From IMG/VR virus record IMGVR_UViG_3300033388_000746, positions 1 through 44,820 of that record: a stretch of DNA of 44,820 nt; one strand, given 5' to 3'. The stretch comes from a virus. Both the position numbers and the translations under genes were made by a program. Position 1 is the first letter of the stretch, and each line of letters opens with the position of its first letter. Positions 41,527 to 44,820 of this stretch are shown piece by piece. The notes below the pieces were generated by a model that saw only the letters and a list, made by a program, of their open reading frames with translations, had not been told where the DNA came from and did no database searches.

Positions 41527-41600
41527 AGCTATTTTTTAGCTAACTAATTGATTATTATTATATTATATTATTATTTATTATATTCCATAGAATATAGTAA
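41527..41600. other. AT-only tract with inverted repeats, candidate replication origin or control region
   Basis: Between the terminator and the primase-helicase start lies a 34-bp stretch (41551-41584) of A and T only. On one side is the hairpin AGCTA-TTTTT-TAGCT (41527-41541). On the other is the perfect inverted repeat TATATTC-CATA-GAATATA (41579-41596). Easily melted DNA flanked by symmetric sites, next to the initiator-type primase-helicase and the SSB-like gene, fits an origin of replication. It could also be an operator/promoter for the helicase gene, because the terminator just upstream leaves that gene without an obvious promoter. Structure is seen; role is inferred. Confidence 0.4.
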
Positions 41601-41630
41601 AAAAAGAGGGAAAGAAATATCTCCCCCTCT
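41598..41630 (-). terminator. Intrinsic terminator on minus strand after SSB-like gene
   Basis: Read on the minus strand, AGAGGGGGAGA pairs with TCTTTCCCTCT over 11 bp (two G:T pairs) around a TATT loop, and is followed by seven T residues. It begins 20 bp past the SSB-like gene's stop and splits the leftward operon before the primase-helicase. Confidence 0.88.
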
Positions 41631-41649
41631 CTTTTCCTACACACAACTA

Positions 41650-43440: not shown

Positions 43441-43833
43441 TTAATTTAATTTAATTAGTTTATTTGTGTGATAAGCGTATTTTTTCATAATAGTATCTCT
43501 TTTTGATTTAAGATTTTTTATGTACTTATCGTTTTTACGTGTGTTTACTTCTGTCTTCATCTTATTTTTAATAAGATCAACTTTACGTTTACAGTTTTCT
43601 AAAGCTAACAATCTACAACCTTTTTCCCAACCATTAACATAAAATATATTATATTCATTTTCAGTAAGTTCTTGATAGTAATCTCCATTTTTAGAACAGT
43701 TAAGTATTTCTAATTTACTTGGGTACTTACTAATTTTAACCCCGATATTAATCATACTTATCCCACCATTTCTTTGGTAGTATATTGCATCATCATTTAA
43801 TGCTTGATTAAATATATCTTTTTTACTGTACAT
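43441..43833 (-). CDS. Hypothetical basic protein (130 aa)
   Basis: This Lys/Asn/Tyr-rich protein opens with MYSKKDIFNQALNDDAIYYQ. It has VNGWEKGCRLLALENCKRKV near the middle, and a strongly basic C-terminal half (KMKTEVNTRKNDKYIKNLKS) ending KKYAYHTNKLIKLN. The high charge suggests nucleic-acid binding. Seven codons near the C-terminus (KKYAYHT) lie in a 21-bp sequence also found in the DUF3310-like gene. It overlaps the DnaA-like gene end by 11 bp. No family was recognised; it may be an early regulator or a DNA-associated protein. Confidence 0.55.
   Translation of the reverse strand: MYSKKDIFNQALNDDAIYYQRNGGISMINIGVKISKYPSKLEILNCSKNGDYYQELTENEYNIFYVNGWEKGCRLLALENCKRKVDLIKNKMKTEVNTRKNDKYIKNLKSKRDTIMKKYAYHTNKLIKLN
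43465..43485. repeat. 21-bp direct repeat, copy 1
   Basis: This 21-bp sequence (plus strand starts TGTGTGATAAGCG, ends in T6) is identical to the copy at 44340-44360. On the minus strand it encodes KKYAYHT in the C-terminal part of the 130-aa protein. Identity across the 21 bp in an otherwise unrelated pair of genes suggests a shared functional site or local duplication. Confidence 0.85.
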
Positions 43834-44119
43834 TTTGTACTCTTTTTACAAATGCTTGATAATCTTTATCAGAAGCAATTGTCTTTTTAGCTTTTTCATA
43901 ACCCTTCATAATAGTGTTGTGTTGCACTGGTAACCCATTCTCCTCCATGAACCTTCTAATACTACTGATCTTTATAGGGCGTTCATACGCTAAGTAATAG
44001 AGCATCTGTCGTGCTTCTGGACGTGGATGAACACGTGACTTGGAAAACATATCTTGCAGTGAAATGTAAAATTTATCTGCAACTAAAGTGGCGTAAACGT
44101 TAAATATTTCTTTTTTCAT
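43823..44119 (-). CDS. DnaA domain IV-like DNA-binding protein
   Basis: This 98-aa protein looks like a stand-alone DnaA C-terminal domain. RVHPRPEARQMLYYLAYERP (residues 29-48) matches the ARQIAMYL helix of DnaA domain IV, and LPVQHNTIMKGYEKAKKTI (63-81) matches the H-S-T-V helix-turn-helix that reads DnaA boxes (here HNTI). The rest lacks the AAA+ ATPase, so it would bind DNA rather than load a helicase itself. It lies between DUF3310-like and hypothetical genes. It could bind the phage origin or compete with host DnaA, either starting phage or blocking host replication. Domain assignment is from motif order. Confidence 0.65.
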   Translation of the reverse strand: MKKEIFNVYATLVADKFYISLQDMFSKSRVHPRPEARQMLYYLAYERPIKISSIRRFMEENGLPVQHNTIMKGYEKAKKTIASDKDYQAFVKRVQNVQ

Positions 44120-44396
44120 TTCTTTTTTTTTCTAATTTTTCTAATCTTTCTATTTCAAACTTTAAGTGATTGATTGATTTTTTTAAACATTCTATTGGAC
44201 TCTCATGTTTTTCAGAGCTGCGTAAACAGTAAGTTACAACATTGCCCACATTCCACGTACAATTAAAATCTTCTACAACATATCTTGCTTGGTAGTATCC
44301 TTCTCTGTAGGTGTCTCCAACATAGTAATCAGGTACGTCTGTGTGATAAGCGTATTTTTTTATTTCTTCTTTTGTTTTTTTGCTTGTTTCTTTCAT
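44100..44396 (-). CDS. DUF3310-like protein
   Basis: This 98-aa protein has DYYVGDTYREGYYQARYVVE near residues 23-42, then FNCTWNVGNVVTYCLRSSEK and ECLKKSINHLKFEIERLEKL. The order (aromatic loop, CNxGNVVxY helix, D/E-x-LKK helix) matches DUF3310, a small family common in phage early regions and sometimes fused to nucleotide-metabolism enzymes. It is basic at both ends. It overlaps the previous gene's C-terminus by 68 bp and the DnaA-like gene by 20 bp, typical of compressed phage operons. Its N-terminal KKYAYHT is encoded by the 21-bp repeat. Confidence 0.6.
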   Translation of the reverse strand: MKETSKKTKEEIKKYAYHTDVPDYYVGDTYREGYYQARYVVEDFNCTWNVGNVVTYCLRSSEKHESPIECLKKSINHLKFEIERLEKLEKKRNEKRNI

Positions 44397-44649
44397 ATCT
44401 ATTTATAAATTCTTCGGTTAATGTTTTATTTAATTTATATTTACTCATGTCATTTTTTATAATGACTTTTTCAGGCAGTGGAATTGCGTATTTACACGCA
44501 GAAACAAATTTACCTTTTATTTCTATTTTATCACACTCTTTAAAGAAATTATTCATTTCAATAGTATCTAATCTATGAGCTTTGTTGTAGTTGCGTAAGT
44601 GTTGTTCGGACTTGACTTGGTCCACTAAATATTGTGCTAATCTTTTCAT
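44329..44649 (-). CDS. First gene of the leftward operon, hypothetical (106 aa)
   Basis: ATG 44649 (MKRLAQYLVDQVKSEQHLRN) is preferred over the TTG at 44658 because it has the AATTGAATAAA leader and a normal start codon. The middle has KECDKIEIKGKFVSACKYAI and PLPEKVIIKNDMSKYKLNKT, mixed strand and helix, and the C-terminus is extremely basic (RYERNKQKNKRRNKKIRLSHRRT is seen as two groups of Lys/Arg). Tail charge suggests DNA or RNA binding. It lies next to the structured control region and would be made first. No family was recognised. Confidence 0.55.
   Translation of the reverse strand: MKRLAQYLVDQVKSEQHLRNYNKAHRLDTIEMNNFFKECDKIEIKGKFVSACKYAIPLPEKVIIKNDMSKYKLNKTLTEEFINRYERNKQKNKRRNKKIRLSHRRT
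44340..44360. repeat. 21-bp direct repeat, copy 2
   Basis: Second copy of the 21-bp sequence at 43465-43485, same orientation, 875 bp away. Here it encodes KKYAYHT near the N-terminus of the DUF3310-like protein, and it also lies inside the overlap with the upstream gene. Confidence 0.85.
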
Positions 44650-44666
44650 TTTATTCAATTAAATTT

Positions 44667-44800
44667 TTAGGAGGTAGATAAGTGTATTAACGTGTCTGGC
44701 AATATCGCCTTTATACCTACCTCCCTAAATACAACAAGTCAAACATTTAATATTAAGGTATCTTACACCTATAAAATTATGGGATTATTCCCGACTTGTT
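44667..44800. promoter_or_regulatory. Structured control region upstream of the leftward operon
   Basis: This gene-free stretch contains three nested or neighbouring symmetric elements. TTAGGAGGTAG (44667-44677) pairs with CTACCTCCCTAA (44717-44728) with one bulged base, and encloses the near-palindrome GGCAATATCGCC (44698-44709). AACAAGTC (44733-44740) pairs perfectly with GACTTGTT (44793-44800), beside the hairpin GGGA-TTAT-TCCC (44781-44792). Such structures could be an operator, a leader RNA of the early transcript, or part of an origin. A tRNA was considered and rejected because there is no T-arm. No TAnnTTTG element is visible on the minus strand here, so the early promoter may use other signals. 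Confidence 0.5.
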
Positions 44801-44820
44801 ATTTTGTTTTGTAATTATTT

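Follow-up and report, generated by a model that had tools for sequence, protein, structure and literature searches.

To our knowledge, few phage-encoded RNA elements have been explained by experiment. The put element of phage HK022, whose host is E. coli, is about 70 nt long, forms two stem-loops in an early phage transcript and works as an RNA that needs no phage protein of its own; it is present at two sites per genome, downstream of the early promoters (PMC9378689). Two tandem elements that we term E1 and E2 share with put their size, their two stem-loops, their placement in an early phage transcript and, presumably, this independence from a phage protein. They lie at the right end of a 44,820-nt linear IMG/VR virus record (IMGVR_UViG_3300033388_000746), the full length of which is referred to here as the window. 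The minus-strand genes of the window encode, among others, an Erf-like annealing protein, an exonuclease, a BT4734-type primase and a helicase. The window's terminase matches 87 phage records, of which 86 are Flavobacterium, Cellulophaga, Tenacibaculum or Maribacter phages and one is uncultured; because phages of Flavobacteriia encode the terminases closest to it, the host of this virus is likely flavobacterial. At the left end of the window, an ORF at 1-438 runs off the contig, indicating that the record is cut there too. Elsewhere in the window, a 98-aa protein encoded at 43823-44119 (minus strand) resembles DnaA domain IV (Pfam Bac_DnaA_C, E 1.4e-5, under the curated cut-off).

An earlier note on this DNA had listed a bulged inverted repeat, an enclosed near-palindrome, an 8-bp perfect repeat and a GGGA/TCCC hairpin, all four of which are present as described. 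They resolve into two closed elements on the minus strand, which is the sense of the early genes, with the bulged repeat (44665-44680 / 44714-44729) corresponding to the outer helix of E2. The features are given below; the letters of E1, E2 and their parts were checked.

44799-44820, minus strand: last codons of the upstream gene, which the contig end truncates (intact in the relative L005: MKEIHQLILKEKLKDNPDIKYIQWLQKLNQDILKKIIINNYKTK and stop, 45 codons in all); its stop codon overlaps the first P1 bases of E1
44733-44800, minus strand: element E1 (match to model R1 at 44724-44806, 97.4 bits; covariation)
44793-44800 with 44733-44740, minus strand: outer helix P1 of E1, the 8-bp perfect repeat
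44781-44792, minus strand: P2 hairpin of E1, GGGAATAATCCC (GGGA..TCCC)
44756-44770, minus strand: P3 hairpin of E1, AGGT..ACCT, absent from the earlier list
44741-44755, minus strand: conserved 3' stretch of E1, TAATATTAAATGTTT
44669-44725, minus strand: element E2 (match to model R2 at 44666-44728, 71.9 bits, its only match in the window; covariation)
44715-44725 with 44669-44679, minus strand: outer helix P1b of E2
44710-44714, minus strand: ATAAA of E2
44698-44709, minus strand: P2b hairpin of E2, GGCGATATTGCC, the near-palindrome
44680-44691, minus strand: conserved stretch of E2, GTTAATACACTT
44329-44649, minus strand: gene immediately downstream, encoding a 106-aa protein of the 'YFKYSG' family (start codon 44647-44649; family alignment)

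The repeats had been placed in 170 gene-free bases before the first early gene. The stretch is indeed mostly free of genes, but 44799-44820 matches the last codons of the upstream gene that is intact in L005, and the position relative to the early genes was misread: the contig simply ends at this point, and in 28 of the 31 related loci with a located element, 4-22 ORFs precede it on the same strand (from crude ORF calls that a contig end often truncates). Read from gene order, the E1/E2 region is mid-operon, and the apparent first early gene is an artefact of the cut contig.

Folding energies support a structured RNA. The minus-strand RNA of 44650-44820 folds at -42.0 kcal/mol, as compared to -25.8 (sd 3.7) in 200 dinucleotide shuffles (z -4.40), none of which is as good, so the region bears out the comparison with shuffled sequence that the earlier note had proposed. 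The plus strand gives -35.5 (z -3.04). Over 20 distinct tandem loci (60 mononucleotide shuffles each) the mean z is -6.1, and when single relatives were folded, none of 200 shuffles was as good in five of six; for the sixth, L014, z is only -1.47 (14 of 200). An alternative arm-swap pairing, in which the 3' arm of E1 joins the 5' arm of E2, has a mean z of -1.3 with uneven support among loci.

Another check proposed there, for compensatory changes across relatives, gave values beyond both shuffled and slid controls for each element, the slid controls being lower than the real score in every test. For E1, a plain MAFFT alignment scores 0.474, while shuffles give 0.219 and no slid version exceeds 0.250, with both-side changes in seven of the eight P1 pairs; in the model-fitted alignment the score rises to 0.645 (0.224 shuffled) and all eight outer pairs show both-side changes. 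For E2, 26 sequences in a plain alignment score 0.615 against 0.285 shuffled and 54 model-fitted sequences 0.648 against 0.307. Double changes are found in all 11 pairs of the E2 outer helix, a count that by itself does not exceed the shuffles (58 and 152 out of 500 have at least as many), and the evidence therefore rests on cells, pair types and score, which no shuffle out of 500 reaches. The P2b hairpin is invariant and contributes no covariation evidence. The wobble pairs are strongly biased: G-U and U-G cells number 37 in E1, as compared to 5 A-C and C-A cells, and the counts in E2 are 108 G-U and 0 A-C. Since G-U stands far above A-C, it is one single strand that folds, most simply RNA. 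On the strength of these comparisons, E1 and E2 are working RNA parts whose shape is kept while their letters change across many dissimilar virus genomes.

Both elements recur among phages that otherwise have little in common. R1, built from 20 sequences, matches 27 of the 28 records chosen as relatives, with one clear copy in each, a weak second match in G023 and none in G015. R2 matches 24 of 34 records, fetched mostly as bearers of E1 or E2, again with one clear copy each, and a pattern scan for E2 found 90 stretches. Weak second matches to the models, in G023 (24.4 bits), G038 (21 bits) and G028 (25.5 bits), were not counted as copies. Across 20 compared E2 loci, nucleotide similarity to the window totals 0-140 nt, with none in seven. 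In an 11.6-kb locus of another phage (L191), E1 is the sole nucleotide match to the window (56 nt at 93%) and closes a gene run opposite a convergent gene. A script scan added minimal E1-like forms (for example in L237, L246, L259, L261 and L292), several of whose loci bear E2 elsewhere, and a pattern scan of genome contigs returned 38 stretches, one of which, L220 (R1 59.5 bits), was judged real by eye. That contig (PAPR01000004.1) is binned as Pseudooceanicola and bears E1 together with phage-like genes; it is possibly a misbinned phage contig. E1 and E2 resemble one another by eye, and L024 looks like a hybrid, but as regards a single duplicated element, R1 has no second copy in the window and no match at E2 among the window matches listed. 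R2 had no match in 395 Flavobacteriales host genomes (stricter filters, no positive control), and neither model matched, at E 0.01, six annotated phage records, namely five cultured flavophages and the uncultured MW202828. A blastn search with one E2 hit seven Cellulophaga records; in the two inspected, the 26-nt match falls within a gene coded on the other strand, and it was put down to chance. No Rfam family (release 15) reaches its gathering score in the window or in seven loci, the weak matches lying far below it, and a search of the open-licence literature found no description of the E1/E2 element.

The genes that follow the elements are diverse. An ORF follows 63 of the 64 distinct E2 elements and starts within 60 nt in 60 of these 63 cases (median 31 nt), and the encoded proteins fall into 16 groups that phmmer does not join at E 1e-3. 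The largest, with 35 members, is the family that we named YFKYSG in the present analysis, the alignment of which contains motifs like (D/N)xYFKYSG and NDMSKYKL. The window's member has no Pfam match, and its two weak PHROG matches (E about 0.06) are to families of unknown function. For E1, 13 related loci encode the downstream protein. A role as the dedicated RNA partner is ruled out as a requirement, as only 15 of the 25 element-bearing IMG/VR records have the family. Retrieval by the protein alone yielded 60 loci, of which 53 were newly fetched and some were in records already known; within the 53, a clear E2 (at least 49 bits) is present in 24 and a clear E1 (at least 51 bits) in 20. Another 13 have a weak E1-like match (27-33 bits, E 0.011-0.13) that folds into an outer helix, one hairpin and an AAATGTT stretch. 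A leader peptide beginning at the AAATG in the tail of E1 was discarded, as its frames, read by eye, break between the close relatives L010/L011 and L025/L026.

Several ways in which such elements could act were weighed. A module that binds host machinery, such as an antiterminator of the put type or a riboswitch of a new class, present once per early operon in many unrelated marine flavobacteria phages, is conceivable but unlikely. Its specific put-like form, in which the nascent RNA would bind host RNA polymerase and cause read-through of terminators further down the early operon, seems more doubtful still. The occurrence of the elements in dissimilar phages is what a host polymerase partner would lead one to expect, and phages of the window type have a strong intrinsic terminator (41599-41636 in the window, minus strand) within the run of early genes, ahead of the primase gene and about 3 kb beyond E2, with counterparts at nearly equal distance in relatives. 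However, terminators are no denser downstream of E2 than upstream (0.058 versus 0.052 per kb), phages of other gene content mostly have no such downstream terminator, and HK022 put follows early promoters (PMC9378689), whereas E1/E2, judged from the ORFs preceding them, do not lie just downstream of such promoters. It is also improbable that E1 is an intrinsic terminator with added decoration, which would fix 3' ends or stop part of the transcription within early operons and would be protected or regulated by its loop. U-runs do often follow stand-alone E1 copies (8 in L014, 9 in L183, 6 in L048, 6 in L025 and 5 in L346; our script also listed L006 and L012 as stand-alone, yet R2 finds E2 in both), E1 lies between convergent genes in L191, and in L006 (8826-8928) and L238 (5648-5750) a long hairpin resembling E1, which contains hairpin GCCCACAACGGGC, has a U7 run and was missed by R1, replaces at the primase boundary the plain terminator of other relatives. 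Against this, the longest U-run after E1 is only 1-4 in the 17 copies with a recognised E2 next to them, E2 is likewise followed by none, and nearly invariant loops would be superfluous in a plain terminator; in the window, neither element combines a GC-rich hairpin with a U-run, and a terminator scan finds none there on the minus strand.

Three further alternatives were considered. A trans-acting phage RNA processed out of the early mRNA would explain why each record has one clear copy, why the neighbours vary and why dissimilar phages have a core in common, although the second E1-like hairpins of L006 and L238 count against a single copy; we consider it improbable, given that a start codon follows at a constant distance of about 30 nt and that the intergenic spaces are presumably too small, as a rule, for a promoter of its own. 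A single-stranded DNA hairpin that serves replication as an origin or primosome site is also compatible with a single copy in each record close to replication genes, and G-T wobble confined to one strand of DNA could likewise produce the pairing bias, but the same core persists beside different replication genes (PolA adjoins E2 in L279, and a primase follows it in L253) and precedes start codons, making this reading very improbable. Least credible is the repressor operator that had been suggested from the inverted repeats adjoining an early gene: instead of conserved palindromic half-sites, the outer-helix letters vary freely and change completely among relatives while pairing persists on one strand, as the strong strand bias of the wobble cells indicates. 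The suggestion of a structured leader RNA of the early transcript fares better, since covariation, fold and the excess of G-U over A-C uphold the structured RNA, whereas the position before the first early gene is lost with the mid-operon setting.

We therefore favour, with a probability of about 0.5, the reading of E1/E2 as cis-acting intercistronic regulatory RNAs in the long early mRNA of flavophages, to which a shared factor or ligand would bind. The alignments establish single-strand folds conserved in the sense of the early mRNA, with nearly invariant inner loops; E2 is intergenic, and an ORF begins about 30 nt past its core. In the proposed mechanism, the elements would act in cis on the mRNA. 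A factor or small molecule that many phages have in common, in the simplest case one from the host, would recognise the invariant loops, and whether the outer helix forms would determine the extent to which the genes downstream are transcribed or translated. Several lineages in which E1 occurs without E2 lengthen its outer helix so that it merges with a U-run immediately ahead of the start codon, a layout that would suit an attenuator. Counting against cis-regulation are the 16 unjoined groups of proteins after E2, which are unlike one regulon; the E1 of L191, which meets a convergent gene and thus has nothing downstream to control; in the window, the absence of a U-run or minus-strand terminator at E1/E2; and, across loci, the uneven support for the E1-E2 switch. 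A single-copy RNA pair with a core common to dissimilar phage genomes suggests a common host target, and E1/E2 offer a compact and testable way to study when genes are expressed in viruses that infect abundant marine bacteria.

Compared with known systems, we regard E1/E2 as a new family of structured RNAs located in phage mRNA. The cultured flavophages Flavobacterium elemo, Cellulophaga Calle, phi38:1 and phi18:3, and Tenacibaculum Gundel have a terminase and portal related to those of the window, but unlike the window they are the five records without an R1 or R2 match. Intrinsic terminators and attenuators are similar in that several stand-alone E1 copies end in U-runs, whereas E1 and E2 of the window are without U-runs and have conserved loops. 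As in riboswitches and protein-bound leader RNAs, a covarying outer helix surrounds a core that hardly varies, and a start codon follows at a short distance; E1/E2 differ from these in having no Rfam family at threshold and no consistent downstream gene, and the genes beside E2 suggest no riboswitch ligand. With respect to HK022 put (PMC9378689), the elements are distinguished by their mid-operon position and different folds, and the binding of polymerase by E1/E2 is hypothetical.
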